A stretch of 64,000 nt of DNA, taken from Microbacterium lacus. Lineage in GTDB: Bacteria > Actinomycetota > Actinomycetes > Actinomycetales > Microbacteriaceae. Under the pieces are notes generated by a model. It worked only from the letters and a program-made list of their open reading frames with translations. It had not been told where the DNA came from and made no database searches. The translations under genes and the position numbers were made by a program. The stretch covers positions 186,001 through 250,000 of the forward strand of contig NZ_BAAAPK010000001.1 of the NCBI RefSeq assembly GCF_039531105.1, read 5' to 3'. Position 1 is the stretch's first letter. Every line of letters begins with the position of its first letter. Of the stretch, positions 7,275-43,718 are shown one piece after another.

Positions 7275-7319
7275 GTTATCGTCGCCGCGTTGACAACCGC
7301 TATGCAAAGGAGCTTCACC

Positions 7320-8102: not shown

Positions 8103-8156
8103 ACCACTCCCCGCGAAGTTCCCTGAGCTCCACCCAGACTGACCACGACTAACCAG

Positions 8157-8194: not shown

Positions 8195-8219
8195 TTTACT
8201 CATCGAAGGAATGACACTG

Positions 8220-9521: not shown

Positions 9522-9632
9522 GACCGTCCTTGTTCCCGCTTGAACATCTCATGTCAGAGCCGTCGTTCTGATCAGTAATGCCTTCCCGTCCTCGGGCTCT
9601 TCGTCCGGACGGTTCTCAGAAAGGAGTACGTC

Positions 9633-17001: not shown

Positions 17002-17060
17002 GTTCGATCGATGGTGGGACCTCATGGACCGTCCGTCTTGTTTGCGACAGACTGACCAGC

Positions 17061-20592: not shown

Positions 20593-21582
20593 ATGGCTCG
20601 ACGCGTAGTGCTCGACTGCGACACCGGCACCGACGATGCCGTCGCGATCATGCTCGCGGGCCTTAGCGCCGAACTCGAGCTGGCCGCTGTGACGACAGTG
20701 AGAGGGAACGTCCCCGTTGACGTGGTTACAGAGAACACGCGCCGCGTGCTGCAGCTCATCGGCAGGTCCGACGTGCCGGTGTACGAGGGAGCCGCTCGTC
20801 CTCTCGAGCGTGACGACTTTCCCGTGCCCAAGGCACAACTCACCGGGTTCGAGATGCACGGGACGTATCTCGATCTGCCCCCGGCATCCGGTCCGCCGGA
20901 GGACGCCTCCGCGACAGACTTCCTGATCACCGAAGCTCGACGACATCTGGCCGACGGATCGCGATTCACGCTCGTCGCTACCGGCCCGCTCACGAATGTC
21001 GCTCGTGCCGTCCGGTCATTCCCGCCCATGACGCACGCGATCGACACGATTGTTGTCATGGGAGGGGGGCATGCCGTGTCGAACGTCACCGCCGCCGCCG
21101 AATTCAACCTCTGGGCCGATCCGGAGGCCGCGGCGGAGGTCCTTTCCGCAGGATTTTCGGATCTGCTGCTCGTGCCGCTCGACGCGACACACCGAGCGCT
21201 CCTTAGTCGCGATGACTGCTCACGGCTGCGGGCGGCTGGGACCCCTGCCGGCATCGCGTCGGCGCAGCTCGTGGAGCAGCGCATCGTCGGCCATGATGAC
21301 TCGCAGCCGATGGCGGAGCGAGGGACGGCGCCCGTGCACGACGCAGTATGTGTCGCGGCCCTGCTAGATCGGCGGCTGCTCACGACCGTCGAAGCGCATG
21401 TTGACGTCGAAACCCAGGGCCGCCTCACCGTCGGGCGCAGCGTGATCGATTTGCACCACCGCACTGGAAGGAAACCGAACGCGCGTGTAGCGGTCGATGC
21501 GAGCCCCGTGCGACTGATGGCGCAGCTGCTCAATGCCTTCTCGTCTCGCGAGCCCGCGCCAGACGGCCCCGTGTCGCGATAA
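20593..21582 (+). CDS. Nucleoside hydrolase (inosine-uridine preferring type)
   Basis: This 329-residue enzyme has the calcium-binding N-terminus of the IunH family, VLDCDTGTDDAVAI (Asp8, Asp10, Asp14, Asp15), a central MGGG segment followed by AEFNLWADPEAA, and the late APVHDAVCVA with the active-site His-Asp. It hydrolyses the N-glycosidic bond of a ribonucleoside to base and ribose. It is the first gene of the catabolic block and carries a copy of the 41-bp element upstream. Its stop overlaps the start of another copy. A pyrimidine nucleoside substrate fits the later genes. Confidence 0.9.
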   Translation: MARRVVLDCDTGTDDAVAIMLAGLSAELELAAVTTVRGNVPVDVVTENTRRVLQLIGRSDVPVYEGAARPLERDDFPVPKAQLTGFEMHGTYLDLPPASGPPEDASATDFLITEARRHLADGSRFTLVATGPLTNVARAVRSFPPMTHAIDTIVVMGGGHAVSNVTAAAEFNLWADPEAAAEVLSAGFSDLLLVPLDATHRALLSRDDCSRLRAAGTPAGIASAQLVEQRIVGHDDSQPMAERGTAPVHDAVCVAALLDRRLLTTVEAHVDVETQGRLTVGRSVIDLHHRTGRKPNARVAVDASPVRLMAQLLNAFSSREPAPDGPVSR

Positions 21583-21619
21583 CAAACGCGTTATCGCTAC
21601 ACGGTTCTTCGTCTTGGAC
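21579..21619 (+). promoter_or_regulatory. 41-bp promoter element, copy A (upstream of the eIF2B-like gene)
   Basis: ATAAC, eight bases, TATCGC, ten bases, TTCGTCTTGGAC. The first half is part of a perfect inverted repeat, GCGATAAC with GTTATCGC around a six-base spacer, which looks like a regulator site; the TTGGAC end resembles a -35 hexamer. It ends 61 bases before the GTG at 21681. Confidence 0.7.
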
Positions 21620-21680
21620 GGGGGTCTTGAGCACATGTGAGGCTCGGTCGCGGGACATCACCCCAAAGAAAGGAACGCCC

Positions 21681-22562: not shown

Positions 22563-22626
22563 CCCACGGCGACAATGATGGGTCACCCGCGGTGATAGTC
22601 GTCGCGGCGACGGAGGAGGAACAACG

Positions 22627-23439: not shown

Positions 23440-23474
23440 CCTCGCGCCGCCGGCGCGTCAAGACAAGGAGTCAT

Positions 23475-24398
23475 ATGTCCACTGCACACGCATCCGCGAT
23501 CGTGGTTTCCGATGAGATCGCGGAGGCGACGGCGGCCGGCAGGCCGGTCGTCGCGCTAGAGTCCACGATCTTCACCCATGGGCTTCCCCGACCAATAAAC
23601 GAAGAAGTCGCTCTTGAAGCGGAAGACATTGTCCGCCAGGAGGGCGCGGTGCCCGCGACAATCGGCATCGTCGCCGGAACGGCCGTCGTTGGCCTCAGCA
23701 ACGAGCAGATTCACCAGCTCTCGAACGAGACCGAGGTGGTCAAAGTGAGTCAGCGCGATCTCGCGGTCGTTGCCGCGAAACGCCTGAGTGGGGGAACGAC
23801 CGTCGCGGCGACCGCGTTCCTCGCGCACCACGCCGGTATCCGCGTCTTCTCGACCGGCGGCCTCGGCGGCGTACACCAGGGCGCGAGCGAGACATTTGAC
23901 GAGAGTGCCGACCTCACAACTCTCGCGGGTGTGCCAATCGTCATCGTGAGCGCGGGAGTCAAATCAATCCTCGACATCCCCGCAACTCTTGAGCGGCTCG
24001 AGACACTCAACATCACCGTTCTCGGCTTCGGCACGAACGCGTACCCGGGCTTTTACGTCACCGAGTCAGGCTCATGGATCGAGTACGCTGTCGACGCACC
24101 CGAAGAAGTGGCGGCCGTCCTCCGCGCACAAGTGGACTTCGGGCTCTCCTCCGCTGTGCTGGTTGCCAACCCGATCTCGCGCGAGAAGCAGCTCGACCCG
24201 GACGAGCACGCCCGCGTGATCGGGGAGGCCTGGGCAAGGGCGGCGGCCGGTGGCATCGCCGGCAACGCCACCACACCATTCCTGCTCGACTACATACAGC
24301 GCGCCACCAAGGGCGAAAGCCTGCGCGTAAATATCGACGTGTACCGCTCGAATGCCAGGCTTGGCGCGCAGATTGCGCGCGCAGCGGCGCTCTCATGA
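23475..24398 (+). CDS. psuG: Pseudouridine-5'-phosphate glycosidase
   Basis: This 307-residue enzyme matches PsuG along its length: VVALESTIFTHGLP with the catalytic Glu29, ATIGIVAGTAVVGL, VVKVSQRDLA with Lys90, STGGLGGVHQGA, IVSAGVKSILD with the Schiff-base Lys163, and GTNAYPGFYV. It splits the C-C glycosidic bond of pseudouridine 5'-phosphate into uracil and ribose 5-phosphate. Start is the ATG at 23475 after AAGGAG. No PsuK is adjacent; the PfkB kinase at 30400 or the PurM-fold protein just upstream could supply the phosphate. Uracil would feed the reductive pathway downstream. Confidence 0.93.
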   Translation: MSTAHASAIVVSDEIAEATAAGRPVVALESTIFTHGLPRPINEEVALEAEDIVRQEGAVPATIGIVAGTAVVGLSNEQIHQLSNETEVVKVSQRDLAVVAAKRLSGGTTVAATAFLAHHAGIRVFSTGGLGGVHQGASETFDESADLTTLAGVPIVIVSAGVKSILDIPATLERLETLNITVLGFGTNAYPGFYVTESGSWIEYAVDAPEEVAAVLRAQVDFGLSSAVLVANPISREKQLDPDEHARVIGEAWARAAAGGIAGNATTPFLLDYIQRATKGESLRVNIDVYRSNARLGAQIARAAALS

Positions 24399-24469: not shown

Positions 24470-25372
24470 ATGAACGTGAGCCTACGACTGCTGCGAGCAT
24501 TCGTCGCAGTCAGCCAAGAAGGCCACGTTGGCCGTGCCGCAGCCCGGCTGTTCATTTCGCAGCCGTCGCTCTCACAAGACATTCGGCGCCTCGAGCGAGA
24601 GATTGGCGTAGTCCTCTTCGATCGAGGCCCGCGCGGACTTACGCCCACTCCAGCAGGCGAAGCGCTGCTGCGCAGCGTCGAGGGGGCACTCGCGATGTTC
24701 GACCAAGGCGTCGCCAACGCACGCGAGATCGCGGCGAGCGGGCGCGGTACGATTCGTGTCGCGTATAGCCCGAGCCTCGCCAACATTTTCATGCCGTCAC
24801 TGCTGTCACTCCTCGAGAGGGTGCTGACGGCGGCCGATATTGAGGAGCACGAACTCGACACTGGCGCCGTTGGGCCCGCGATCAGCGTCGGCGCTTACGA
24901 TGTCGGGTTCGCGCACTGTCCGACCAGCGACCCGCGTCTCGTGGTGGCGCACATCGCTGACGAGCCGCTGTGCGTTGCCGTGGCCACGGGGCACCCGCTT
25001 GCGGGGCGGCCGTCCGTGCGCCTCAGCGAGCTCAGCGGCTCGTCGCTGCTGATCTGGCCGCGTGCATCGGCGCCCGACTACTACGACATGATCCTTGATA
25101 TCTGCAGCGAGGCGGACGTCGGCCTCCGAGGGGTTAAGGAGTCCCGCCGTATCACACCGCGCACTTACCTTCTCGATGATCAGCAGACTTTCAGCCTGTT
25201 ACCGCGCTCGGCGGCATCGCTGCCGCGCCCCGAGGTGACCTTCCTCCCTATCGAAGAGAGCCGCTGGACTCTACCTCTCACACTGATCTGTCGTGCGGGC
25301 GACAACCGCCGTGAGCTCGACCAGATTCGGATCAGTGCGGAGCAGGTCGGGCGCGCCATCTCGGCGTGGTAA
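24470..25372 (+). CDS. LysR-type transcriptional regulator of the nucleoside locus
   Basis: This 300-residue regulator has the LysR helix-turn-helix at the N-terminus (LRLLRAFVAVSQEGHVGRAA, FISQPSLSQDIRRLEREIG, LFDRGPRGLTPT) and a substrate-binding domain after residue 90. It lies on the same strand between psuG and the transporter. The inverted repeat inside the shared 41-bp elements (ATAAC with GTTAT) is the natural candidate for its site. The ligand is likely a nucleoside or uracil-derived metabolite. Confidence 0.88.
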   Translation: MNVSLRLLRAFVAVSQEGHVGRAAARLFISQPSLSQDIRRLEREIGVVLFDRGPRGLTPTPAGEALLRSVEGALAMFDQGVANAREIAASGRGTIRVAYSPSLANIFMPSLLSLLERVLTAADIEEHELDTGAVGPAISVGAYDVGFAHCPTSDPRLVVAHIADEPLCVAVATGHPLAGRPSVRLSELSGSSLLIWPRASAPDYYDMILDICSEADVGLRGVKESRRITPRTYLLDDQQTFSLLPRSAASLPRPEVTFLPIEESRWTLPLTLICRAGDNRRELDQIRISAEQVGRAISAW

Positions 25373-25524: not shown

Positions 25525-26919
25525 GTGCAGTCACAGAGTTCCACTTCGCCCGGCCGGCCCTCCCGGAGGGTCCTGATCACCGGAGCCGGGGCGGTGAGTC
25601 TTGCCCTTTGCCTGGCGGCCTGCGCACCAGGCTCGGGCACGGCGGGCCCATCGGCGAGTGGAGAGGCAAGTGCCGGATTCGACACGACTAAGGACGTCAC
25701 CCTGACGATTGCCGACGGCTGGGGTACGTCAGGCACGGGAGAAGTATTCGCAGATGTCATCGCTCAGTTCGAGGCGAAGTACCCGAACGTAACGATTGAG
25801 CGAGACACGACCGACTACAACTCACACACCAGCTCGATCGCGCTCAAGGCATCGTCCCCGACACCACCGGATGTAATGATGCTCACTACGACGGGCTACG
25901 GCCAAGGCTTTTACGACTTCGTCAGGGCAGACCTTCTGCTGCCGCTCGACGATTACTCGAAGCTTTACGACTGGCCGAGCCGAGTTGGTTCGGATGCAGC
26001 GCTTGACGTGTTCCGTTTCGACACGGGCAAGGGGAACCAATGGGGTTCCGGCGCCCTCTTCGGCGTTCCAGAACAGAGCAATGTGATCGGCGTCTTCTAC
26101 AACAAGAGCTTGCTCGCCAAGGCCGGCTTCGACGCGCCACCAACGTCCCTTGCTGAGTTCGAGTCGACACTATCGGGAGCGAAGGCCGCCGGAATAACCG
26201 CGATCGCACAATCGAGCACCTACATCCACACCAACATGGCGCTGTGGGGCTCCTTTGCCGCCGACGCGAAGGAGGTCAACGACTGGGTATACGGCGCCTC
26301 CGGCTCATTCTCCGATCCGGCCAACGTCACCGCTGCCCAGAAGATTCAGGACTGGCAAGGCGCAGGCTATTTCCAGGACGGCGCCTCCGGCACGTCCGAT
26401 TCCGACGCCGCGGGCCTCTTCCTCAACGGCGAGAGCATGTACTACATCTCCGGCAGCTGGATGGCCGGCGGCGTGGACAGCAACCTGGGCGACGACGGCG
26501 GAGTCTTCCTGCTGCCAGGTAGCTCCAGCTCGTCGCCGGTGGGTGGCGGACTTTCCACCCCTCTTGTGATCAGCTCGAAAACGCAGCACCCGGACGTCGC
26601 CGCGGCGTTCCTTGACTTCTTCCTGAGTGCAGAGACGAGCGACTTCCTGTACACGAATGGATGGGGCGTACCTGGCGGCCTCGTCTCATCGTCCGACCTG
26701 GCCAGCGGGCCCACGTCGGCCTCGGTGCTCGACCTCATCGACCATACGCAGGCCGGCCCCGGTACCTTCCCGTTCCTCGACTGGGCAGCCCCTCAGTTCA
26801 CAACGCTGCTGCCCACCGAACTCCAAAAGATGGCGGCTGGCCAGTCGACGCCAGAGCAGTACACGAATCTTGTGCAGAGCGATTGGGAATCGTTCCAGCA
26901 GACTCGGAAATCGTCCTAG
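25525..26919 (+). CDS. ABC importer substrate-binding lipoprotein (CUT1 type)
   Basis: This 464-residue extracellular protein starts at a GTG and has a lipoprotein signal with lipobox LAAC near residue 32, preceded by twin Arg (RRVLITGAG). The mature part shows the cluster 1 solute-binding pattern: VIAQFEAKYPNVTIE, VMMLTTTGYGQGFYDF, NVIGVFYNKSLLAKAGFDAPP, and GLFLNGESMYYISGSW. Such proteins usually bind sugars or glycosides; here a nucleoside such as uridine or pseudouridine fits the operon. It is followed by two permeases. Confidence 0.9.
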   Translation: MQSQSSTSPGRPSRRVLITGAGAVSLALCLAACAPGSGTAGPSASGEASAGFDTTKDVTLTIADGWGTSGTGEVFADVIAQFEAKYPNVTIERDTTDYNSHTSSIALKASSPTPPDVMMLTTTGYGQGFYDFVRADLLLPLDDYSKLYDWPSRVGSDAALDVFRFDTGKGNQWGSGALFGVPEQSNVIGVFYNKSLLAKAGFDAPPTSLAEFESTLSGAKAAGITAIAQSSTYIHTNMALWGSFAADAKEVNDWVYGASGSFSDPANVTAAQKIQDWQGAGYFQDGASGTSDSDAAGLFLNGESMYYISGSWMAGGVDSNLGDDGGVFLLPGSSSSSPVGGGLSTPLVISSKTQHPDVAAAFLDFFLSAETSDFLYTNGWGVPGGLVSSSDLASGPTSASVLDLIDHTQAGPGTFPFLDWAAPQFTTLLPTELQKMAAGQSTPEQYTNLVQSDWESFQQTRKSS

Positions 26920-26934
26920 GGCGACCGCCACACC

Positions 26935-27858
26935 ATGCACTCGTTTCGCACAGACGGGGAGGCTATCGTGTTGTCTCCCCGTCGTCGGCGGCATAGCGGG
27001 GTCACGACCCAGAAGGTCGGACTCGTTTACATCGCACCTCCGCTCGCGCTGTTCGTCTTCGGCATCCTCGTTCCGCTTGGCTACGGCGCGTATATCTCGC
27101 TCTGGCGCTGGGACGGTATCACGCAAGCGACATTCGTCGGATTCGATAACTACCTCGACGCGGTCACCGACCCTCTCGTCCTGCAGGCGTTTGCCCACTC
27201 CTTCTTTCTCGTCGCGTTCTATTCCGCGATCCCCATCTGCCTGGGCCTCGTGCTTACGGGAGTAATAGCCCGTTACCCACTCCGCTTCACCGGCACCTGG
27301 CGGGTACTGCTCTTTCTGCCGCAGGTGCTGTCGATCGTTGTGGTAGGCGTCGCATGGCAGTGGCTGCTTGCGGCGGATGGTCCCGTCAACCAGCTCCTGC
27401 GGCTGGTCGGGCTCGGCGGGCTCACCCGGGTATGGCTTGGTGACTTCGTGTGGGCGTTGCCCGCCCAAGGCGCGATTGGTGCGTGGCTCATGTCGGGGCT
27501 GTGCATGGTGCTCTTCCTTTCGGCGGCACAGAACATCGACCACGAGCTCTACGACGCTGCGGCGGTCGACGGTGCGGGCCCGGTACGGGAGTTCTTCGCC
27601 GTTACGGTTCCCAGCCTCCGGCGTGTGATCGTCGTGGCCGCAGTCCTCACATTCACAGTGTCTCTCAACAACTTCGGGCTCATCTGGGTGACAACCCGAG
27701 GTGGCCCCGGTGGCGCGACACAAGTGGTCGCAACCCTCGTATACGAGCGTGCCTTCGTAGTGACCCAGTTGGGCAGCGCTTCCGCGCTGGCGCTCCTCCT
27801 CGGCCTTATCGTGATGGCGATCTCGCTTGGTATCACGCGCATCTCACGGGAGGACTGA
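26935..27858 (+). CDS. ABC importer permease 1 (MalF/UgpA type)
   Basis: This 307-residue inner-membrane protein has six hydrophobic segments and the permease loop ELYDAAAVDGAGPVREFFAV near residue 200, which docks the ATPase. It lies 15 bases after the binding protein and directly abuts the second permease, whose ATG follows its stop. An N-terminal Arg-rich stretch precedes the first span, so a TTG at 26971 is a possible alternative start. Confidence 0.9.
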   Translation: MHSFRTDGEAIVLSPRRRRHSGVTTQKVGLVYIAPPLALFVFGILVPLGYGAYISLWRWDGITQATFVGFDNYLDAVTDPLVLQAFAHSFFLVAFYSAIPICLGLVLTGVIARYPLRFTGTWRVLLFLPQVLSIVVVGVAWQWLLAADGPVNQLLRLVGLGGLTRVWLGDFVWALPAQGAIGAWLMSGLCMVLFLSAAQNIDHELYDAAAVDGAGPVREFFAVTVPSLRRVIVVAAVLTFTVSLNNFGLIWVTTRGGPGGATQVVATLVYERAFVVTQLGSASALALLLGLIVMAISLGITRISRED

Positions 27859-28680
27859 ATGACCACACGCAATTTCTCCGCCCTCCGCTATGGATTCCTC
27901 GGGTTCCTCTCGCTCGTGACCGTCGCGCCGCTGGTCGTGGTCGCGATCACGTCCTTTAACGCGCCGAACACGCCGGTAGCCGGCTTCCAGTGGCCGGACC
28001 CCTTCACGCTCGAATCCTTCGGCAGCGCGTGGGTCAACGGCGGCTTCGGCTCGGCCTTCCTGGATAACACCCTCATCACGGCGGGCGTCGTATTCATCGT
28101 GACGGTCTGCTCAATCAGCGCGGGCTATGCATTTGGCACGATGCGCTTCCCAGGCTCGCGCTGGTTCTACTATCTATTCCTCATCGGCATCGTCACGCCA
28201 TACGTCGTGCTGGTGGTACCCCTCTACCTGCAGTTTCAGGCGCTCGGCATCCTCGGCACGTACTGGGCGATCATCATTCCCGAAGCAGCGATGTACCTCG
28301 GCTTTGGGGTGTTCTGGATGCAGGCGTTCTTCGCCTCGATCCCGCGGTCGCTCATCGAAGCGGCAAGGCTCGACGGGGCGTCATCGTTCCGCATCCTCGT
28401 CACGATCCTGATACCGCTCGCGCGACCAGCGATCACGACGCTCATGATGCTGACGTTCCTGTCGTCGTGGAACGAGTACCTGGTGCCACTGGTGATGGCC
28501 GCCTATGGCGACATAACCACGGTGTCGCTGGGGCTCGCGAGCTTCCAGGGCCAGTACCTCACGGACATCCCTTCTCTTGCGGCCGCGTCCGTCGTCGTGG
28601 CGCTGCCCGCGGTCCTCATCTACGTCATCACCCAGCGGACCTTCTTCCGCGGATTACTGCAAGGAGCGGTTAAGGAATGA
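27859..28680 (+). CDS. ABC importer permease 2 (MalG/UgpE type)
   Basis: This 273-residue permease has six spans and the docking loop LIEAARLDGASSFRILVTIL. It starts immediately after the stop of permease 1. No ATP-binding subunit is encoded nearby, which is usual for CUT1 systems in actinobacteria that share a multi-use MsiK-type ATPase. Its stop overlaps the ATG of a 23-codon frame. Confidence 0.9.
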   Translation: MTTRNFSALRYGFLGFLSLVTVAPLVVVAITSFNAPNTPVAGFQWPDPFTLESFGSAWVNGGFGSAFLDNTLITAGVVFIVTVCSISAGYAFGTMRFPGSRWFYYLFLIGIVTPYVVLVVPLYLQFQALGILGTYWAIIIPEAAMYLGFGVFWMQAFFASIPRSLIEAARLDGASSFRILVTILIPLARPAITTLMMLTFLSSWNEYLVPLVMAAYGDITTVSLGLASFQGQYLTDIPSLAAASVVVALPAVLIYVITQRTFFRGLLQGAVKE

Positions 28681-28757: not shown

Positions 28758-30194
28758 ATGTCAACGACACTTATCACCGGCGGCAAGGTCGTTAATGCCA
28801 CCGGCACTGCCCAGGCTGACGTTCTGATCGACGGCGAAAGAATCGCCGCCGTGCTGGCACCGGGCTCGACGCTACTCGGGCACGACCTGACGGCATCCGT
28901 CGACACCGTCGTCAACGCGACTGGTAAGTACGTGATCCCGGGTGGCATCGATGCGCACACGCACATGCAGATGCCGTTCGGCGGCACCGAAGCCTCCGAC
29001 ACGTTCGAGACCGGCACCCGCGCGGCAGCCTGGGGCGGCACGACCTCGATTGTTGACTTCGTGGTGCAATACCCCGACGAAAATCCTCTTGACCGCTACG
29101 CGGCGTGGCATGAAAAGGCTGCCGGCGAGTGCGCGATCGACTACGGCTTCCACCAGATCCTTTCCGACGTTCAGGACTCCAGCCTGGTCGCGATGGACGA
29201 GCTGGTCGCAGAGGGCGTTACGAGCTTCAAGCTCTTTATGGCCTATAAGGGTGTGTTTCTCTCGGACGACGGCCAAATCCTGCGGGCGTTTCAGAAGGGC
29301 GCCAAAAACGGCGCAATGATGATGATGCACGCTGAGAACGGCGCGGTGATAGACGTGCTTGTCAACCAGGCGCTTGACGCCGGTAACACCTTGCCGTTTT
29401 TTCACGGTACCTCTCGGCCATGGCAGGCTGAGGAGGAGGCCACTCATCGGGCTATCATGCTTGCAGACATCACCGGAGCGCCGCTGTACGTCGTGCACGT
29501 CTCGGCAAAGCAGGCCGTCCAGCAGATCGCCGCCGCCCGCGACCGGGGGATGAACGTCTTCGGCGAGACGTGCCCGCAGTACCTATACCTGTCACTAGAA
29601 GACCAGCTCGGCGCGTCTAGTGAGGAATGGGGAAACTTTGAGGGCGCAAAGTGGGTGTGTTCCACGCCGCTGCGCTCGAAGCACGAGGGCCACCAGCACT
29701 ACATGTGGCAAAGCTTGCGCACCAACGACATCCAGATGGTCTCCACCGACCATTGCCCGTTCTGCATGAAGGGGCAGAAGGACATGGGGATCGGGGACTT
29801 CTCGAAGATCCCCAACGGCGTCGGCTCGGTCGAGCACCGGATGGACCTCATGTACCAAGGTGTCGTGGCTGAGCAGATCACCCTGGAGCGCTGGGTAGAA
29901 ATCACATCGACAACCCCTGCGCGCATGTTCGGCATGTACGGCAAGAAGGGCGTGATCCAGCCCGGGGCGGACGGAGACATCGTGGTTTACGACCCCCACG
30001 GCCATACATCCATCGGCGTCAACGAGACCCACCATATGAACATGGACTACTCCGCGTGGGAGGGCTTCGAGATCGACGGACACGTCGACACCGTGCTTTC
30101 GCGCGGCAAGGTCATCGTCGACGGCGACCGGTATCTCGGCGCCAAGGGCGACGGCAAGTACTTCAAGCGCGGCCTGAGTCAATACCTCATTTGA
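28758..30194 (+). CDS. hydA: Dihydropyrimidinase
   Basis: This 478-residue cyclic amidohydrolase has the binuclear metal site of the D-hydantoinase/dihydropyrimidinase group: DAHTHMQMP (His67, His69), the carboxylated lysine in SFKLFMAYKG (Lys158), MMHAENG, YVVHVSAK and STDHCPF. It opens dihydrouracil to N-carbamoyl-beta-alanine, the second step of reductive pyrimidine breakdown. Its stop overlaps the ATG of a small nucleoside-hydrolase-like remnant. Aminotransferase, semialdehyde dehydrogenase and amidase genes follow, which supports a pyrimidine rather than hydantoin substrate. Confidence 0.92.
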   Translation: MSTTLITGGKVVNATGTAQADVLIDGERIAAVLAPGSTLLGHDLTASVDTVVNATGKYVIPGGIDAHTHMQMPFGGTEASDTFETGTRAAAWGGTTSIVDFVVQYPDENPLDRYAAWHEKAAGECAIDYGFHQILSDVQDSSLVAMDELVAEGVTSFKLFMAYKGVFLSDDGQILRAFQKGAKNGAMMMMHAENGAVIDVLVNQALDAGNTLPFFHGTSRPWQAEEEATHRAIMLADITGAPLYVVHVSAKQAVQQIAAARDRGMNVFGETCPQYLYLSLEDQLGASSEEWGNFEGAKWVCSTPLRSKHEGHQHYMWQSLRTNDIQMVSTDHCPFCMKGQKDMGIGDFSKIPNGVGSVEHRMDLMYQGVVAEQITLERWVEITSTTPARMFGMYGKKGVIQPGADGDIVVYDPHGHTSIGVNETHHMNMDYSAWEGFEIDGHVDTVLSRGKVIVDGDRYLGAKGDGKYFKRGLSQYLI

Positions 30195-30403
30195 TGGTAA
30201 TTACTGTGCCACCTTTCCTGACTGATCCTGGCATTGATGATGCATTCGCCATCGCCATCGCCATCGCGATTGCTGCTGCGCTCACCAGACGCTCGCAGTG
30301 TCGGCATCGGCACAATCGTCGGCAGCATGAGCGTCCTCCCAGCGGTCACATCTTTGTCCGTTGCCCCAAAGACGAAGCAACATCACGGGATGGCAAGAAA
30401 TGA
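30194..30403 (+). pseudogene. Remnant of a second nucleoside hydrolase, coupled at both ends
   Basis: A 69-codon frame starts at an ATG overlapping the dihydropyrimidinase stop and ends in a TGA overlapping the ATG of the PfkB gene. Its first residues, VPPFLTDPGIDDAFAIAIA, are the signature N-terminus of nucleoside hydrolases (DxDPGIDDA type). After about residue 30 the frame turns to Arg/His-rich sequence, while another frame reads GIGTIVGSMSVLPAV, as if shifted. A full enzyme would need about 310 residues, so most of the gene is gone while both junctions survive. Confidence 0.55.
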
Positions 30404-31200
30404 CTGAGCTGCTCACCGTTGTCGGCTCCGCCAATATCGACACCGTCATCAAAGTCGCCTCCCCCCCCGCGCCCGGGCAGACGGTGCTGGGCCGCGGCAT
30501 CGAGCGCCGACCGGGGGGGAAAGGCGCCAATCAGGCAGCGGCCGCCGCAGCATCCGGTGTGCCCACACGCCTAGTAGCGGCCTTCGGCGACGACCAAGCC
30601 GGCGAGACCTATCGCACCCGCCTCAACGATCGAGGCGTCAACACCCGTGACAGCGTCATCGTGCCGGGCCCGTCCGGCGAAGCAATTATCACAGTCGACG
30701 ACCGGGGAGAGAACTCCATCATCGTCATCCCGGGCGCCAACAGCCTCCTGGACCCCGACTCGGCCCGATTCCACCTCGGCGACACCCCCTGGGTCCTGGT
30801 GCAACTCGAGACCCCTCGCGCCACGGTGCAAGCCGTGATCACGGAGGCTCACGCTCGAGGCGCCAAGGTCGCATTGAACGCATCTCCGATAATCCCAGAG
30901 GCGCACGAACTCGCACTTCAGTGCGACCTAGTGATCGTCAATGAGATCGAAGCCGCACAGCTGGAGGGGGTGCAGGATATGTGCATCACCCGGGGGGCTG
31001 GAGCAGTGACCTGGGGAGACGAGATCGCAATGCCGCGCCCCGTCACCGTTGTGGATACCACGGGCGCAGGCGACGCTTTCGCAGGCGCCCTCGTTGCTGC
31101 CACCGCCGCCGGACAGTCCAGGCACAGAGCCCTAGAGACCGCCCTAAATGCTAGCGCGGTAGCTGTGCAGCATGAGGGCGCCCAGCCCTGGCGGCTCTGA
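30400..31200 (+). CDS. PfkB-family sugar/nucleoside kinase (ribokinase or pseudouridine kinase)
   Basis: This 266-residue kinase has the two PfkB signatures: RRPGGKGANQAAAAA near residue 40 and VDTTGAGDAFAGAL with the catalytic base Asp225. It is shorter than E. coli ribokinase by about 40 residues, with a compact region before the second signature. The ATG at 30400 overlaps the preceding remnant's stop. In this operon it could phosphorylate ribose released by the nucleoside hydrolase or convert pseudouridine to its 5'-phosphate for PsuG. The sequence alone does not decide. Confidence 0.82.
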   Translation: MTELLTVVGSANIDTVIKVASPPAPGQTVLGRGIERRPGGKGANQAAAAAASGVPTRLVAAFGDDQAGETYRTRLNDRGVNTRDSVIVPGPSGEAIITVDDRGENSIIVIPGANSLLDPDSARFHLGDTPWVLVQLETPRATVQAVITEAHARGAKVALNASPIIPEAHELALQCDLVIVNEIEAAQLEGVQDMCITRGAGAVTWGDEIAMPRPVTVVDTTGAGDAFAGALVAATAAGQSRHRALETALNASAVAVQHEGAQPWRL

Positions 31201-31271
31201 CCGCCACATCGACACGTCGAGCGACCCGTCCACAAGGGGACCTTGCTCGCACTACCAGGAAGGAGACACCG

Positions 31272-32300
31272 GTGGACTTTGGTGTCGTCGTGCAAGTCAA
31301 CCCACCCGCTCCGCGCATCGTCTCTCTAGCTAAGCGGGCGGAGGAGTATGGCTTCGACTACTTCTGGACCTACGACTCCCACATCCTCTGGCACGAGCCC
31401 TACGTCGTGTATTCCCAGATCCTCAGCAACACCACGCAGATCAAGGTCGGCACGATGGTGACCAACCCGGCCACTCGGGATTGGACCGTCACTGCTTCCA
31501 CGTTCGCAACCCTGAACGCCTGCTTTGGCAACAGGACAATCTGCGGGATCGGCCGTGGCGACTCCGCCGTCAGGGTCACCAATGGCAAGCCGACCACGCT
31601 GAAAGAACTCCGCGAGTCCATCCACGTAATCCGGGAGCTCGCCAATTCTCGGGCTGTGGAGATCAACGGATCTCAGATTCGGTTCCCCTGGAGCCGCAAC
31701 TCAAGTCTGGACGTGTGGGTTGCCGCCTACGGACCCCTCGCGCTGAAGGTCGCGGGCGAAGTGGGAGACGGCTTCATCCTGCAATGCGCCGACCTCGACA
31801 TCGCCAAGTGGATGATCTCGACGGTACGAACTGCTGCTGAGAACGCCGGCCGCAACCCCGAAGACGTCAAGATCTGCGTTGCAGGCCCGATGTACGTCAC
31901 GGACGGCACCCCAAATTCGCGAGCACACGCGATCGAACAATGCCGGTGGTTCGGAGGGATGGTCGGCAACCACGTCGCCGACATCGTCGCCAAGTACGGC
32001 ACCGGCAGCGACGTCCCCGCAGCGCTGACCGACTATATCGCCGGTCGCCAGAGCTACGACTACAACGAGCACGGGAAGTCTGGGAACACCCACGTCGACT
32101 TCGTCCCCGATGAGGTCGTAGAGCGCTTCTGCATCATCGGAACCCCCGACGAGCACGAGGCCAAGCTGGCCGAACTGAAAGCGCTTGGTGTCACGCAGTT
32201 CGCTGGGTACCTCGACCACGACAACAAGGAAGAGACCCTTCGCGTCTACGGCGAAACCATCATCCCCGCTCTCCGCGATTACATCACCGCAAAGGCCTGA
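31272..32300 (+). CDS. LLM-class F420-dependent oxidoreductase, CPS_4043-like; candidate uracil reductase
   Basis: This 342-residue TIM-barrel protein belongs to the luciferase-like family: LAKRAEEYGFDYFWTYDSHIL, IKVGTMVTNPATRDWT, CGIGRGDSAVR, VWVAAYGPLALKVAGEVGDGFILQ, FCIIGTPDEHEAKLAEL. The style is that of the TIGR03842 group, often seen beside dihydropyrimidinases. It starts at a GTG behind AAGGAGA. Since the operon has no dihydropyrimidine dehydrogenase but does encode an F420-reducing enzyme at 35243, this protein is the best candidate to reduce uracil or thymine with F420H2. The family call is firm; the reaction is inferred. Confidence 0.82.
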   Translation: MDFGVVVQVNPPAPRIVSLAKRAEEYGFDYFWTYDSHILWHEPYVVYSQILSNTTQIKVGTMVTNPATRDWTVTASTFATLNACFGNRTICGIGRGDSAVRVTNGKPTTLKELRESIHVIRELANSRAVEINGSQIRFPWSRNSSLDVWVAAYGPLALKVAGEVGDGFILQCADLDIAKWMISTVRTAAENAGRNPEDVKICVAGPMYVTDGTPNSRAHAIEQCRWFGGMVGNHVADIVAKYGTGSDVPAALTDYIAGRQSYDYNEHGKSGNTHVDFVPDEVVERFCIIGTPDEHEAKLAELKALGVTQFAGYLDHDNKEETLRVYGETIIPALRDYITAKA

Positions 32301-32304
32301 CCCC

Positions 32305-33633
32305 ATGACCCATCAGATCAGCAATCAAGCCGTCGCCGACCTCGACATCGCTCGCGTCTTCCACTCCTGGTCTGCGCAGGGGACGCTCAAGCCGATGGCT
32401 ATCGCCGGCGGGTCTGGATCGACGGTCTGGGACTTCGAGGGGCACGAATACCTCGACTTTTCGAGCATGCTCGTCAACACCAATATCGGGCACCAGCATC
32501 CCGCTGTGATCGCCGCCATCAAAAAGCAGGCCGACGTGCTAACAACGGTGGGGCCGGCTTTCGCCAATCTGACCAGGGGAGAGGCGGCCGAGCGCATCCT
32601 GGCCCGGGCCGGCGACGGGTTCACGAAGGTCTTCTTCACCAACGGCGGAGCAGATGCGAACGAGAACGCGATCCGCATGGCCCGTCTATACACAGGACGC
32701 GACAAGGTGCTTTCCATGTACCGCTCCTACCACGGCAACACCGGCGCAGCGATCGTCGCGACCGGTGACTGGCGACGCATCCCCAACGAGTACTCGCGCG
32801 GTCACGCTCACTTCTTCGGTCCCTTCGCGTACCGCTCGGAGTTCTGGTCATCCAGCGCGGAGGAGGAGGGCCAGCGCGCCCTGCACCACCTCCGCCGGGT
32901 AATCCAAGCCGAGGGAGCCGGGTCGATCGCGGCGATCCTTATCGAGACCGTGCCCGGCACCGCCGGGGTGCTCGTGCCCCCGCCTGGCTACCTCGCCGGA
33001 GTGCGGGCGCTGGCCGACGCACACGGTATCGTCCTCATCTTCGACGAGGTCATGGCGGGCTTCGGCCGCACGGGCGGGTGGTTTGCGTTCCAAGCCCTCG
33101 CCGAAAACGGCGACCTCGTGACCCCCGACCTGATCACGTTCGCCAAGGGTGTCAACTCTGGCTACGTACCCACAGGCGGTGTGATCATCTCGCCGGCGAT
33201 CGCCGAGCGATTCGACGACGAGGTGTTCCCAGGCGGACTCACCTACTCGGGCCACCCGCTGGCCATGGCGTCGATTGTGGGTGCTCTCGATGCGATGGAA
33301 TCAGAAGGTGTCATCGAGCACGCCGCCCGCATCGGCTCCGACCTGCTCGCGCCGGGCCTCGCGGAGCTGACTGACAAGCACCCGACGATCGGTGAGGTCC
33401 GCGGGCTCGGCGTGTTCTGGGCCCTCGACCTGGTGGCCGACACCCAGACGCGGGAGCCGCTGCCAGCCTCCGCGATCGGTGTATTGAAGGCTGACCTTCT
33501 CGCCCGCGGACTGCTGCCTTTCATTGTCGACAACCGCATTCACGTCGTGCCGCCGTGTGTAGTCACCGACGACGAGGTCACCCGCGCCCTCGCGATCTTC
33601 GACGAGGCCCTCGCCGCCTTCGAAAGCGGCTGA
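32305..33633 (+). CDS. Class III aminotransferase (beta-alanine/omega-amino acid type)
   Basis: This 442-residue PLP enzyme has the class III pattern: VWDFEGHEYLDFSSML, NIGHQHPAV, FFTNGGADANENAIRMAR, YRSYHGNTGAA, LIFDEVMAGFGRTG with the cofactor Asp, and TFAKGVNSGYVPTGG with Lys281. It starts five bases after the LLM gene. It should convert beta-alanine, or 3-aminoisobutyrate from thymine, to malonate or methylmalonate semialdehyde, which the next enzyme takes up. An aspartate-aminotransferase label in databases would not change this. Confidence 0.9.
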   Translation: MTHQISNQAVADLDIARVFHSWSAQGTLKPMAIAGGSGSTVWDFEGHEYLDFSSMLVNTNIGHQHPAVIAAIKKQADVLTTVGPAFANLTRGEAAERILARAGDGFTKVFFTNGGADANENAIRMARLYTGRDKVLSMYRSYHGNTGAAIVATGDWRRIPNEYSRGHAHFFGPFAYRSEFWSSSAEEEGQRALHHLRRVIQAEGAGSIAAILIETVPGTAGVLVPPPGYLAGVRALADAHGIVLIFDEVMAGFGRTGGWFAFQALAENGDLVTPDLITFAKGVNSGYVPTGGVIISPAIAERFDDEVFPGGLTYSGHPLAMASIVGALDAMESEGVIEHAARIGSDLLAPGLAELTDKHPTIGEVRGLGVFWALDLVADTQTREPLPASAIGVLKADLLARGLLPFIVDNRIHVVPPCVVTDDEVTRALAIFDEALAAFESG

Positions 33634-33717
33634 CATTCCGGTGCCGTCCGCCGCATCCCTAACTGAGCGCGCGACTTCTCTGACACTCACCAGCCCACAA
33701 ACCCGTTCGGAAAACGC

Positions 33718-35226
33718 ATGACCTCCCAGACACTGACCATCGGCCACTGGATCGACGGCGCCTCCGTGGCCTCTCAGAGCGGCCGCACTGCGCCCGTCTA
33801 TGACCCTGCCCGGGGCGTCGAGACCACGCGTGTGGCTTTAGCCGACCATGCCGAGATCGACGCGGCCATCGTCTCTGCGGCCAAGGCCTTCCCCGACTGG
33901 CGGGACCTGTCCATTGCCCGCCGGCAGATGATCGTGTTCCGTTTTCGCGAGCTGCTGTATGAGCGGAAGAAGGAGCTGGCCGAGATCGTCACCGGCGAGC
34001 ACGGGAAGGTGGTTTCCGATGCTCTCGGAGAGATCCAGCGGGGCCTCGAAGTCGTAGAGCTGGCCACCGGCTTCCCGCACCTCATCAAGGGTGGCTATTC
34101 GGAGAACGTTTCTACTGGCGTCGACGTGTATTCCCTCAAGCAGCCCCTTGGGGTGGTGGGAATCATCTCACCCTTCAACTTCCCTGTGATGGTGCCGATG
34201 TGGTTCTTCCCCATCGCAATTGCGGCCGGCAACACCGTCGTGCTCAAGCCCAGCGAGAAGGATCCCTCCGCCGCGATCTGGATCGCACAGCTCTGGAAAG
34301 AGGCCGGACTCCCCGACGGTGTGTTCAACGTCCTGCAGGGCGACAAAGAGGCGGTCGATGGGCTGCTGAAGCACCCCGAGGTGCAGTCCATCTCCTTCGT
34401 GGGCTCCACCCCCATCGCGCAGTACATCTACGAAACCGCATCGAAGAACGGCAAGCGAGTCCAAGCTCTCGGCGGGGCAAAAAACCACATGCTCGTCCTG
34501 CCCGATGCCGACCTCGACCTCGTCGCCGACTCCGCCGTCAACGCGGGCTTCGGCGCCGCTGGCGAACGCTGCATGGCGATCTCTGTTGTCCTAGCCGTCG
34601 AGCCCGTCGCCGGCGAGCTGATCGAAAAAATCACCAATCGCATCGCCAAGCTGCGCATCGGCAATGGCTCCTCCGAGAACGAGCCTGATATGGGGCCCCT
34701 CATCTCCGAAGCGCACCGCGACAGGGTCGCTTCGTACGTGGATATCGCCGAAGCTGACGGCGCCCGCGTCGTCGTCGACGGTCGCGGGTACACCGTCGAC
34801 GGCCACGAGGAGGGGTTCTTCTTCGGCCCCACCCTGCTGGACGTGGTCCCGACGACTTCACGCGCATACACCGAGGAGATCTTTGGCCCAGTGCTCTCGA
34901 TAGTGCGCGTGAAGACCTACGAAGAGGGCCTCGCGCTCATCAATAGCGGCGAGTTCGGCAATGGCACCGCCATCTTTACCAACGACGGCGGCGCCGCCCG
35001 CCGTTTCCAAAACGAGGTTCAGGTCGGGATGATCGGCATCAACGTGCCGATTCCAGTGCCGGTGGCCTACCACTCGTTCGGTGGATGGAAGAAGAGCCTG
35101 TTCGGCGACGCCAAAGCCTACGGTGTGCACGGCTTCGACTTCTTTACCCGCGAGAAAGCCGTCACCAGCCGCTGGCTCGACCCCGCCTCCCACGGCGGCA
35201 TCAACCTCGGCTTCCCACAGAACTGA
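33718..35226 (+). CDS. mmsA: CoA-acylating (methyl)malonate-semialdehyde dehydrogenase
   Basis: This 502-residue aldehyde dehydrogenase carries the MMSDH features: [52 protein letters not shown], and the catalytic Cys285 in [11 protein letters not shown], with no general-base Glu in the usual place of hydrolytic ALDHs. It yields acetyl-CoA or propionyl-CoA, CO2 and NADH from the semialdehydes made by the preceding aminotransferase, ending the pyrimidine route. IolA of inositol breakdown is the same family, but no inositol genes are here. Confidence 0.93.
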
Positions 35227-35242
35227 GGAGCAACACCGGACT

Positions 35243-36262
35243 ATGACGCTTCGACTTGGATACAAGGCCAGTGCTGAGCAGTTCGCTCCCCGAGAGTTGG
35301 TGGAGATTGCCGTTGCTGCCGAGGCGCACGGAATGGAGTCCGTCGCCGTCTCCGACCACTTCCAGCCGTGGCGACACGAGGGCGGGCACGCTCCGTTCTC
35401 TTTGGCGTGGATGGCAGCGGTGGGTGAGCGGACCACGTCAATCCGCATCGGCACCAGCGTCATGACGCCGACGTTTCGCTACAACCCCGCGGTGCTCGCA
35501 CAGGCGTTTGCCACGCTAGGTGAGCTCTTCCCCAACCGGATCTTCCTCGGCGTTGGTACTGGTGAGGCCCTGAACGAGATCGCGACCGGATTCCGGGGGG
35601 CCGGTGAGCAGACCTGGCCAGAATTCAAGGAACGGTTTGCGCGGCTGCGTGAAGCGATTTCATTGATGCGAGCGCTCTGGACCGAGGACCGCGTGAACTT
35701 CGATGGCGAGTACTACTCGACCCACGACGCGTCCATATACGACCGCCCCGCTACCCCCATCCCGGTCTACGTTGCGGCCGGCGGGCCAGTCGTGGCCCGG
35801 TATGCGGGTCGGGCAGGAGATGGTTTCATCTGCACCTCGGGCAAGGGCATGTCCCTGTACACGGACGATCTAATCCCGGCTGTTCGAGAAGGTGCCTCGA
35901 AGGTCCAGCGTTCGTTCGACGACATCGATCGAATGATCGAAATCAAGTTGTCCTACGACAGCGATTACGACATGGCGCTGCAGAACACACGGTTCTGGGC
36001 TCCGCTGGCGCTGTCGAAAGAGCAGAAGCACGACATCACCGATCCGGTCGAAATGGAAGAAGCGGCGGATGCGCTCCCCATCGAGCAGATCGCGTCACGC
36101 TGGATCGTGGGTGCCGACCCTGACGAGGTTGCCGCACAGATCGCGCAGTACGTGGACGCGGGCCTGAATCATCTTGTGTTCCACGCTCCTGGTCAGGATC
36201 AGCGGCGCTTCCTGGAGCTATTCCAGCGCGATCTCGCCCCCCGCTTGAGGGCTCTTGCATGA
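35243..36262 (+). CDS. fgd: F420-dependent glucose-6-phosphate dehydrogenase
   Basis: This 339-residue protein matches mycobacterial Fgd1 nearly from end to end: [37 protein letters not shown] (catalytic His39 and Trp43), [31 protein letters not shown] (Glu108), GFICTSGKG with the phosphate-binding Lys, and [20 protein letters not shown]. It oxidises glucose 6-phosphate and reduces F420. The likely start is the ATG at 35243 after GAGGAGCAACACC; the long upstream frame is not protein-like. Its place inside a catabolic operon with an LLM oxidoreductase suggests it supplies F420H2 for that step. Confidence 0.92.
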
Positions 36263-38322
36263 CCGGCTCGCATGTCGCCGGCGCGCCGATGGGAGAAGCG
36301 GGCGCGCGTATTCATGACGTCGTCGAGCTAGGCGTCGCGGACATGCTTCGCCTCCTCGAGCGGGGCGAGGTGACAAGCGTGGAACTGGTAGTCGCATACC
36401 TCAATCGGATCGCCTACTACGACCGCACCGGGCTCTGCCTACACTCGATCGCCGTGTTAGACCCCACTTGCATCGAACAAGCCGCAGCCTCCGATGCCAG
36501 ACGCCGCGCTGGCCGAGCGGGTCCGCTGGAAGGAATCCCCTTCACGATCAAGGACAGCTATAAGGCAAGGGGTCTCTCCGTCGCTTCAGGTAGCCCCGCT
36601 CTGGCCGAGTTGGTAGCCTCGGAGGACGCCGCGACAGTGCAACAACTGCGCGCGGCAGGAGCAGTCTTGCTTGGCAAGACGAACATGCCGCCGATGGCGG
36701 CGGGGGGCATGCAACCCGGCGTTTACGGGTATGCGCGGAGCCCCTACCATCCGGATTATCTGACGGCTGCTTATGGATCCGGGTCATCGAATGGCTCGGG
36801 CACCGCTACCGCGGCCAGCTTCTGCGCGTTCGGTATGGCGGAGGAGACGGTCTCGTCAGGTCGAGCGCCAGCCTCGAACAACGGCCTCGTCGCCTACACG
36901 CCCTCCCGTGGCGTGCTCTCCATCCGTGGCAATTGGCCGCTGCGACCCACCTGCGACGTCGTCGTGCCGCACACCCGCACCGTCGACGACCTCCTCTTAC
37001 TCCTCGACGTGCTCGCCGTGACCGACCCCGACACGACGGGCGACATCTGGCGGCAGCAGACCGCCGTGACACTGCCCGCGCCAGAAGACGTCATCCCGCA
37101 CCCGGTGGCACGCCCGCGGCCCGAGCGTCTCGATGGTCTGCGAATTGGCGTGCCACGGATGTACATCGGCGAAGACCGAGAATCTCTCGACCCGCCTGTC
37201 ATACGCCCCTCGGTACGCGCGCTCTGGGACCGCGCTGCCGAGGATCTCCGCGCGCTCGGCGCCGAAGTGATCAAGGTCGATTTCCCCGCCGTTTCGAACT
37301 ACGAAGAGGACCGTCCTGGTGCACGTGGCCTCGCGGAACGCGGACTCGTCCCGAAGAACTGGCGTGCCCTTGAGGGCGGCACTGTGACCGCCATGGCACT
37401 CGATTCGTTCCTGCGTGATAACGGCGACCCCAGCCTTGACAGTTGGGCCGACATCGACGGCGACACAGTCTTCCCAGCGGAGGACGCCCCCGTCCCGGTT
37501 TGGATCACCCGGGCCAGGGGAGGTTTCGATTGGCAGCGACTCGCAGAGCTTGTCAAGCAGGGAGTGCCAGCCGACTACGACGCCGTTGCAGGCCTCGACC
37601 ATCTCCTGCGCGGATTAGAAGAGGCTCGCCGGATCGACTTCGAAGAATGGATGCAGGCAGAGGATTTGGATCTGATCGCATTTCCTGCCGCCGGCGACGT
37701 GGGTCGGGCCGACCTGTTCGACCGACCCGAGAGTCTGGAGGCAGCCTCTCGAAACGGCGTCGTCTACTCAAACGGCAACCGGGTCATCCGGCACCTCGGC
37801 ATCCCCACCGTCACTGTCCCCATGGGATGCATGGGAGACATTCAAATGCCCGTCGGAGTTACCTTCGCGGGCCCGGCATACAGCGACGACCTCCTCCTCG
37901 ACCACGCCTCCGCGTATGAGAAGGCGACACATAGACGTCAGCCTGCGTTTCTAACCCCGACGCTCCCGTCGAACCAGATCGATCCCGGCACTCCAGATGC
38001 CCTCGAGGACAGAGATGGGGATGATAAGGCAGCGGAGCCCGAATCGATCACTATCGAAGCGGTTGGCCGATCGTGGGAGGTTGAGGTGCGTCTTTTAGAG
38101 GGCGCGTCCTTCCCGACGCACGTCTGGGCCGACGGCCACATCCTCCGCCCGGACAGCGGCGAGGAGACGGTCTTCCGTGGCCGCGTCTCACTATCCCGCC
38201 CACGCTCAGCGAACGAGATGTTAATTGTCACGACCGCTGGCCGACATGCGGCAAAGCTTTCGTTCGTCGCGCTGCCAGATCGAAGGAAGCCGGGTGACAC
38301 CGCGAGGAAACCCGATCGATGA
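36259..38322 (+). CDS. Amidase-signature hydrolase with a C-terminal extension; possible N-carbamoyl-beta-alanine amidase
   Basis: This 687-residue protein has the amidase-signature core to about residue 555: [14 protein letters not shown] (Lys98), GSGSSNGSG (cis-Ser176) and [10 protein letters not shown] (nucleophile Ser200 by spacing). Around 100 C-terminal residues form an extra beta-rich domain ([25 protein letters not shown]). Its ATG overlaps the fgd stop (ATGA). The pathway needs an enzyme to release beta-alanine from N-carbamoyl-beta-alanine and no standard beta-ureidopropionase is present, so this amidase may do that job. An amide of another metabolite is possible. Confidence 0.8.
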
Positions 38323-42716: not shown

Positions 42717-43718
42717 ATGGCGGACTCAACGAACGTTGTGGAATCGACGGCCGCTCCGTCATCAGCGGACGTGATGTCGCTGCTCTTTCCGATGCGTGCC
42801 GCCGTCGCTACTACGCCAGCGCTGGTCCTGGTGCGCCGACCGGCGGGGGTGACGACCGCGGCAGCCACGGGACGGCTGGTCGCGGAGCACGGGCGGGATA
42901 TCGCCGTCATCAATGGCGACGAGCTCCGCGCGATGCACCCCGCGGCCGCCAACCCGGGCCCTGACGCGATGCAGGTCGTGCAAGCCGCTGCCGCGGAGTG
43001 GGTGCGTTCCAGTCTGGCTTTCGCGCGTGAGCATCGCCGCTCGATTCTGCTGGAGGGGTCCTTCACGTCGCAGGCGACGCTGGGGCTTGCTCGGCGGTTC
43101 CGCGATGACGGGTTCGAAGTCAGGGTGGTGTTGTGCGCGGCACGTCGGTCAGACAGCGTCCTTGCGGCCGTGTCCCGGCACCTTTCAGAATTGCGAGCCG
43201 GCATCGCGAGCGTGTTTGCCGGTCGCGACGCGGTGGACCGTGACCGAGATGGTTTATACGGGCTGGCGGCTGCTTTGGAGCAGCCCAGTGCGGTGGGTCG
43301 CGTCTCGGTCTTCGGGCACAGCGGTGCATCGGTTTTCGACGTGCCCGGTGAAGTTCCGGAGACAGGTTTTCCAGGCGTCAGGGACGCTGTGGGGGTTGCC
43401 GAATCTGGACGGCGGTCGAGCCTGGAGGCGGCGCAGTGGCTGAGTGAGCTTCGGCGGGTGACTGACTTCGCGAAGTCCCGACGTAATCTACCTCGGCCGG
43501 TGGTGGTGGCGCTGGTCGAGCTCCATGAAGTCGCCCTGCGGGAGGTGATTCCGGCCCTACCGGTGCCCGCGGGATCGATCGCTGCGGCGGGGATCGAACG
43601 GAACGTCGCCGCGGACCTCGTTCTTCTCCGGCGCGGGCTCGCGATCGAGCGTCCCGGAGACATCGCCGCGCCGTCCGTGGCTCCTGTCAGTCCGAACCGC
43701 GCAGGGCTGGACCGGTGA
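42717..43718 (+). CDS. Zeta-toxin-family protein with an altered Walker A motif
   Basis: This 333-residue protein matches zeta toxins: INGDELRAMHP (the UDP-sugar site with Asp68), ILLEGSFTS with the conserved Glu, and a helical C-terminus. The family phosphorylates UDP-N-acetyl sugars. Where the P-loop should read PGAGKTT it reads PAGVTTA, so the catalytic Lys is Thr46. It is coupled to the antitoxin before it and, through a GTGA overlap, to the recombinase after it. Toxicity is therefore doubtful; a variant nucleotide site is the alternative. Confidence 0.7.
   Translation: MADSTNVVESTAAPSSADVMSLLFPMRAAVATTPALVLVRRPAGVTTAAATGRLVAEHGRDIAVINGDELRAMHPAAANPGPDAMQVVQAAAAEWVRSSLAFAREHRRSILLEGSFTSQATLGLARRFRDDGFEVRVVLCAARRSDSVLAAVSRHLSELRAGIASVFAGRDAVDRDRDGLYGLAAALEQPSAVGRVSVFGHSGASVFDVPGEVPETGFPGVRDAVGVAESGRRSSLEAAQWLSELRRVTDFAKSRRNLPRPVVVALVELHEVALREVIPALPVPAGSIAAAGIERNVAADLVLLRRGLAIERPGDIAAPSVAPVSPNRAGLDR

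Follow-up and report, generated by a model that had tools for sequence, protein, structure and literature searches.

A luciferase-like protein family as a candidate F420H2-dependent uracil and thymine reductase, viewed from a pyrimidine catabolic gene cluster of Microbacterium lacus

How might a bacterium reduce uracil when the genes around its dihydropyrimidinase include no dihydropyrimidine dehydrogenase? This question is raised by a 64,000 nt stretch of the Microbacterium lacus genome (assembly GCF_039531105.1, contig NZ_BAAAPK010000001.1, positions 186,001 to 250,000), hereafter termed the window. The initial annotation of a gene run in this window proposed that an LLM-class (luciferase-like) oxidoreductase encoded at 31272 reduces uracil or thymine with F420H2, and that the reduced cofactor is supplied by an F420-dependent glucose-6-phosphate dehydrogenase (Fgd) encoded at 35243 in the same operon. 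F420 is a rare cofactor, and the proposed route would use it instead of the usual iron–sulphur flavoenzyme, with the enzyme that recharges it encoded in the same cluster. The dihydropyrimidinase, LLM, aminotransferase, (methyl)malonate-semialdehyde dehydrogenase (MMSDH), Fgd and amidase genes named in that annotation were all found on the + strand, and their coordinates and family calls were confirmed; a PfkB-family kinase gene that lies inside the run was absent from its list. The genes of the run are as follows.

28758..30194, + strand: dihydropyrimidinase, PydB-like (TIGR02033 532 bits, cut-off 393; closest solved chains D-hydantoinase/dihydropyrimidinase 4kqn and 3sfw)
30361..31200, + strand: PfkB-family kinase, ribokinase-like, a probable ribose or nucleoside kinase (PF00294 148.9 bits; TIGR02152 191.6 bits, below cut-off 299.65)
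31272..32300, + strand: LLM-class oxidoreductase (TIGR03842 557.8 bits, cut-off 295.45; full-length model match, residues 2–334)
32305 (likely start)..33633, + strand: class III aminotransferase (PF00202; PRK06062 711.9 bits)
33718..35226, + strand: CoA-acylating MMSDH (TIGR01722 681.2 bits, cut-off 449)
35243..36262, + strand: Fgd (TIGR03554 630 bits, cut-off 420; aligns to 3B4Y and 5LXE)
36259..38322, + strand: amidase-signature hydrolase (PF01425; PRK06565 690 bits, cut-off 575)

Our comparisons make it highly probable that the 31272 protein, and TIGR03842 with it, acts as an F420H2-dependent uracil/thymine reductase and is a non-homologous stand-in for PydA. The proposal made for the window thus gains support from comparative gene linkage, in which the LLM gene is associated with genes for dihydropyrimidinase and for the synthesis and reduction of F420.

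The 31272 protein is a member of TIGR03842, a family without known function. Its nearest solved relative, both by sequence and by fold, is Mer, the F420-dependent methylene-tetrahydromethanopterin (H4MPT) reductase, and the 15 top rows by Z in the fold comparison are all F420 enzymes. V63 (the valine of the predicted cis-peptide site), D97 and Q171 are kept in 28/28 aligned LLM proteins, and predicted pterin/F420-contact positions are among them. Ser36, His37, Asp97, His234, Tyr264 and His267 are invariant in the same alignment and serve as candidate proton donors, and the conserved residues W226, F227, N233, H234, Y262–Y264 and H267 form segments.

Assignment of the protein to a known enzyme class was also tried and rejected. 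It is not Mer proper, as its TIGR03555 score of 136 bits lies under the cut-off of 348.7 and Glu6 is replaced. Nor does it qualify as a member of RutA, since the RutA model TIGR03612 exceeds its cut-off of 498 bits nowhere in the genome (the best score, 68 bits, is elsewhere) and 31272 is not among the 10 genome places listed for this model. Finally, the protein may work like PydA/PreA, yet it is no member of that class and has no homology to the flavin mononucleotide (FMN)/Fe-S enzyme.

The genome as a whole is consistent with the use of F420, as genes for CofD, CofE and a CofG/FbiC-like protein are present. A dihydropyrimidine dehydrogenase encoded elsewhere, which like a lack of F420 biosynthesis genes was named in the initial annotation as a refuting observation, was not found: the PreA model (NF006183) remains below its cut-off of 335 bits throughout the genome, with a best score of 30 bits. 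Co-occurrence was examined in 199 Microbacteriaceae genomes using the TIGR03842 cut-off and limits of E <= 1e-40 for CofD and E <= 1e-30 for CofE. TIGR03842 is present in 92 of these genomes, CofD in 89 and CofE in 111. All 92 genomes with an LLM gene carry CofE, and 88 of the 107 without it lack CofE. A total of 72 genomes encode both CofD and LLM. The two genes share a contig in 63 of them, and in 62 of these (33 genera) no more than 25 kb separate the two. For CofE, the 70 genomes with both genes on one contig include 62 in which it is located within 30 kb of LLM. In a sample of 296 genomes from the phylum, CofE was found in 59/62 LLM genomes versus 104/234 others. PreA was detected in none of the 199 family genomes and in 2 of the 296 phylum genomes, neither of which has an LLM gene; among 14 control genomes, the same search detected E. 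coli and Deinobacterium chartae.

The local association was assessed in a scan with the window LLM protein as query, from which the best 80 of 272 loci were kept and named, all of them Actinomycetota by title. A dihydropyrimidinase gene is present in 70 of these 80 loci, a nitrilase-type hydrolase in 73, an aminotransferase in 45, MMSDH in 22 and an NMT1/THI5-type transporter in 54; for the 65 loci of at least 16 kb, the corresponding counts are 62, 64, 41, 20 and 49. Dihydropyrimidinase is the next searched-for gene upstream of LLM in every locus that has both (70/70). The run extends into a CofG/FbiC-like gene and an Fgd gene in Microbacterium sp. 18062 and into an Fgd gene in Agreia sp. PsM10, and in one Nesterenkonia locus Fgd is located directly 3′ of LLM, with an amidase gene further along. 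Brevibacterium yomogidense shows the order cofE-cofC, cofD, hydrolase-LLM-permease-npdG, where the permease is of the uracil/xanthine family and falls below all curated single-substrate cut-offs. An Fgd gene close to LLM, as in the window, is not a general rule: Fgd of at least 58% identity is near LLM in 5 of the 80 named loci.

Within the window, the genes from LLM to the amidase are separated by intergenic gaps of 4, 84, 16 and −4 bp, and they are probably co-transcribed because the gaps are this short. The LLM gene begins with GTG preceded by AAGGAG, and Fgd has GAGGAG 12 nt 5′ of its ATG; both motifs are Shine–Dalgarno-like. Promoter-like and terminator-like sites did not rise above the level of shuffled sequence. 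As previously annotated, Fgd 35243 has His39, Trp43 and Glu108 when aligned to M. tuberculosis FGD1 (3B4Y), and Thr, Lys, Lys and Arg of the phosphate site are kept as well; we take these residues to be those that contact F420 and the phosphate. The genome holds three Fgd genes, one of which adjoins cofD, and a CofG/FbiC-like gene stands beside an Fgd gene in locus L041. The third Fgd, 72% identical to that of the window, is near sugar-type ABC transporter genes (G000:C1:3050001-3067000, L042).

M. lacus carries a second set of these genes (L040), comprising a nitrilase-type hydrolase, dihydropyrimidinase, LLM, an NMT1/THI5-type transporter, aminotransferase and MMSDH. The nitrilase-type enzyme has a CN_hydrolase domain, its best NCBIfam match being AguB at 229 bits (cut-off 410), and it receives the name PydC from context only. 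The claim that the window operon encodes every step from dihydrouracil to acetyl-CoA goes too far at the carbamoyl step, since its amidase does not count among the known beta-ureidopropionases. Amidase 36259, which among solved chains is closest to Tse8, a protein of amidase fold, is an unproven candidate for an N-carbamoyl-beta-amino acid hydrolase. A 67% relative of this amidase is encoded in the Nesterenkonia cluster (L064). The idea that the amidase is a plain replacement of the nitrilase is weakened, because L064 carries both.

Occurrence beyond Actinomycetota was surveyed through plasmids, with 60 of 150 records listed, and through protein names, with 120 of 7457 matches listed. In two annotated Leisingera plasmids, the genes cofG-cofH-cofD-cofC-cofE-npdG-LLM are divergent from pntA-pntB-aminotransferase-Zn-hydrolase-hydA-NCS1 symporter, where pntA-pntB is annotated as a transhydrogenase and NCS1 as a nucleobase symporter. 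The eight remaining Leisingera records show LLM about 3 kb away from CofD. Paracoccus alcaliphilus has cofG to npdG and LLM followed by an NMT1-type transporter, and hydA was not seen in the 49 kb of this locus. The LLM proteins of Leisingera and Paracoccus are about 44% identical to that of the window. Fgd (PF00296) and NpdG (PF03807) are unrelated F420H2-making enzymes, and this argues that one pathway is served by different F420-reducing enzymes, Fgd in the window and NpdG in Leisingera and Brevibacterium. As the two swap beside the same LLM, F420H2 appears to be the shared need.

A tree of the LLM proteins was computed from 99 rows, leaving out two (L047 and L099) with a frame outside 300–360 residues or no start motif and one duplicate (L124). 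The window LLM groups apart from the other copy in its genome and is found with proteins from Kineosporia, Agreia, Microbacterium 18062, Microbacterium mangrovi, Paractinoplanes, Frondihabitans, Nesterenkonia and Brevibacterium, which represent five families. The 16-row group with the window copy has support of 87/95, and its join to Kineosporia only 82/48. Both copies are also present in Agreia PsM10 (L044/L090) and Microbacterium 18062 (L043/L088). Fgd (at least 58% identity) or NpdG occurs in the fetched stretch for 9/16 rows of the window group versus 3/78 of the other actinobacterial group, a comparison made after the tree had been seen and counted anywhere in stretches of differing length. 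This pattern suggests, without proving it, that the window copy belongs to a version spread by horizontal transfer together with an F420 reductase of its own. The window run is a second copy, probably horizontally acquired, to which Fgd and nucleoside genes were added.

The same-strand genes located 5′ of the run, in order, encode a nucleoside hydrolase, an IF-2B-like protein, an AIRS-like protein, a PsuG-like protein, a LysR-type regulator and the parts of an ABC transporter (25525–28680). Those with a feature assignment are listed here.

20593..21582, + strand: inosine/uridine-preferring nucleoside hydrolase (PF01156 262 bits)
23478..24398, + strand: PsuG-like protein of the Indigoidine_A family, presumably a pseudouridine-5′-phosphate glycosidase (PF04227 383 bits)
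24470..25372, + strand: LysR-type regulator (PF00126/PF03466)
25525..26919, + strand: ABC transporter solute-binding protein, SBP_bac_1 (PF01547)
26935..27858, + strand: ABC transporter permease 1 (PF00528)
27859..28680, + strand: probable ABC transporter permease 2, abutting permease 1 (29% relatives in the L042 and L044 transporter runs)

The row from 20593 to 24398 is a possible pseudouridine/nucleoside salvage unit, and parts of it recur near LLM in Paractinoplanes (L045 and L048). Resolvase-type proteins encoded at 19540–20193 (− strand) and 43715–44269 (+ strand) flank the nucleoside/pyrimidine cluster; taken with the unusual placement of the LLM protein in the tree, they hint at an acquired island. 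The G+C content changes from 0.60–0.66 to 0.70–0.72 at about position 48000, and the cluster sits in the lower-G+C part. Elsewhere in the window, positions 7290–10796 look like a C-glycoside breakdown cluster, in which a protein combining domains of the C-glycoside deglycosidase beta-subunit and xylose-isomerase-like types (8211–9521) adjoins a FAD-binding monooxygenase-like protein (9633–10796), and positions 16968–19304 encode a 778-residue protein without a Pfam match at E <= 0.001.

In the pathway that we propose, F420H2 bound to the LLM protein would donate a hydride to position C6 of uracil or thymine, and protonation of C5 by an acid in the active site would yield dihydrouracil, or its thymine-derived counterpart, without FMN or Fe-S centres. 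Dihydropyrimidinase 28758 would then open the ring, and a carbamoyl hydrolase, either amidase 36259 or the nitrilase-type protein encoded in L040, would release beta-alanine. The aminotransferase, probably a beta-alanine/beta-aminoisobutyrate transaminase as judged from its context, and MMSDH would convert the carbon to acetyl-CoA, or to propionyl-CoA from thymine. Fgd 35243 would recycle F420 to F420H2 at the expense of glucose-6-phosphate, while the nucleoside hydrolase, the PsuG-like protein and the PfkB kinase might feed in uracil and ribose phosphate.

Several observations weigh against this proposal. The catalytic Glu6 of Mer is replaced by Val, Cys or Thr in 28/28 LLM proteins, so that only candidate proton donors can be named, and the model of the active-site region has low confidence at residues 38–40 and about 231–280. 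The window run is without a recognised beta-ureidopropionase. No dihydropyrimidinase is seen in 10 of the 80 named loci, the three long ones among them being from Brevibacterium, and in the 17 kb stretch from Streptomyces BHT-5-2 the search for F420 genes gave no match. F420 genes (CofE) are present in 19/107 family genomes that have no LLM gene. Conversely, 20/92 family LLM genomes yielded no CofD match at E <= 1e-40; CofE, a marker chosen after the CofD count had left these 20, is found in all of them, and we therefore treat CofD as one that may have been missed, diverged or been replaced there. CofE itself was not found in 3/62 phylum LLM genomes (96, 81 and 89% complete). The co-occurrence P values of 5e-38 (family) and 1e-14 (phylum) ignore kinship, being uncorrected for shared ancestry, and a few genomes belong to both samples. 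A TIGR03842-like match of at least 43% is present in only 11/39 plasmid records with CofD, from which it follows that F420 has other uses in Proteobacteria. Lastly, no assay of any TIGR03842 member was found in the literature searched.

We considered what else the LLM protein could do. It could be F420-dependent but act on another cyclic ureide or pyrimidine, the product of which dihydropyrimidinase would open; conceivable substrates are a thiamine-type pyrimidine, a modified uracil, a hydantoin precursor and a purine-derived ring. The NMT1/THI5 family is associated with thiamine pyrimidines, and a transporter of this type (Pfam NMT1) is what 54/80 loci contain; moreover, dihydropyrimidinase homologues open hydantoins too, and the solved relatives of the window enzyme are D-hydantoinases. 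However, LLM is paired with a uracil/xanthine-family permease in B. yomogidense and with a nucleobase symporter in Leisingera, the aminotransferase and MMSDH suit beta-alanine and beta-aminoisobutyrate, and the window also has a nucleoside hydrolase and a PsuG-like protein. We regard a different substrate as improbable.

The chance is smaller still that LLM is a RutA-type FMN/O2 monooxygenase acting on uracil, to which its F420-gene linkage would be incidental. RutA requires FMN and O2 and opens the pyrimidine ring itself, and its product would need no dihydropyrimidinase, the gene that so regularly precedes LLM. The failure of TIGR03612 across the genome, the kinship with F420-dependent Mer and the presence of CofE in 92/92 LLM genomes also speak against such an enzyme. 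Equally hard to credit is a role for LLM wholly outside pyrimidine catabolism, with dihydrouracil imported from outside. Feeding on external dihydropyrimidines is possible in principle, but the invariable position of dihydropyrimidinase before LLM in loci with both does not favour this, and Leisingera again has the functional partners, there combined with a hydrolase and a transporter of other types. Reduction of uracil or thymine by F420H2 therefore remains our preferred reading. More broadly, TIGR03842 is likely to represent an additional, non-homologous kind of dihydropyrimidine dehydrogenase, one that takes its hydride directly from F420H2. Actinomycetota would have in it their main route of reductive pyrimidine breakdown, and it would account in part for the production of F420 by many Microbacteriaceae and some Rhodobacterales; in one lineage it would move between families as a self-powered module with Fgd or NpdG.

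If true, this assignment would provide a role for a family now annotated as hypothetical and explain the reductive pyrimidine pathway in actinobacteria without PydA. A primary catabolic role with uracil would also help to explain the purpose of F420 in some bacterial lineages. A 2021 FEMS review of F420 treats as unanswered why mycobacteria encode many predicted FDOR/LLHT enzymes and what F420 is made for in Proteobacteria and Chloroflexi, and its main text contains no word starting with ‘uracil’ (PMC8498797). For some lineages, the catabolic role would supply an answer. Another paper, in the portion covered, mentions F420 LLM proteins only as a gene class (PMC10143877). F420-dependent uracil reduction is in no title or abstract start among the matches listed from the open-access literature, which leaves preprints and most subscription papers outside, and the names TIGR03842 and CPS_4043 are in no paper of that literature searched. 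The family would furthermore offer a way to reduce uracil-type rings with a simple enzyme of one domain. 5-Fluorouracil, a substrate of PydA-type enzymes, is an obvious candidate.

Among known systems, the proposed route is closest in layout to the Pyd gene clusters, which, in the part of the report covered, combine a PydA-type enzyme with the same downstream partners (PMC7332683). LLM and PydA/PreTA would share the first step and the partners dihydropyrimidinase, carbamoyl hydrolase, aminotransferase and semialdehyde dehydrogenase. They are nevertheless non-homologous, LLM being one luciferase-like TIM-barrel domain with F420H2 as its proposed reductant, whereas PydA/PreTA is a multidomain FMN/Fe-S enzyme dependent on NADPH, NADH or ferredoxin. 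Compared with Mer, LLM has another residue in place of the catalytic Glu6 and its gene context is pyrimidine catabolism. RutA belongs to the same superfamily and likewise to the area of pyrimidine catabolism, but is absent from the genome over cut-off. Fgd 35243 matches FGD1 of Mycobacterium tuberculosis and Rhodococcus jostii in cofactor and phosphate-site residues and passes the equivalog cut-off; it differs in that it sits in a catabolic cluster, in a genome with two further Fgd genes. The nearest precedent in concept is the reductive degradation of uric acid in Chloroflexota, for which a putative F420-dependent luciferase-family reductase has been proposed (PMC12507026). To judge from the part of that paper covered, the general idea of an F420 LLM protein that takes the place of a flavin/Fe-S reductase ahead of a cyclic amidohydrolase has already been published; the Chloroflexota enzyme, which is called putative, is proposed for a purine breakdown product.

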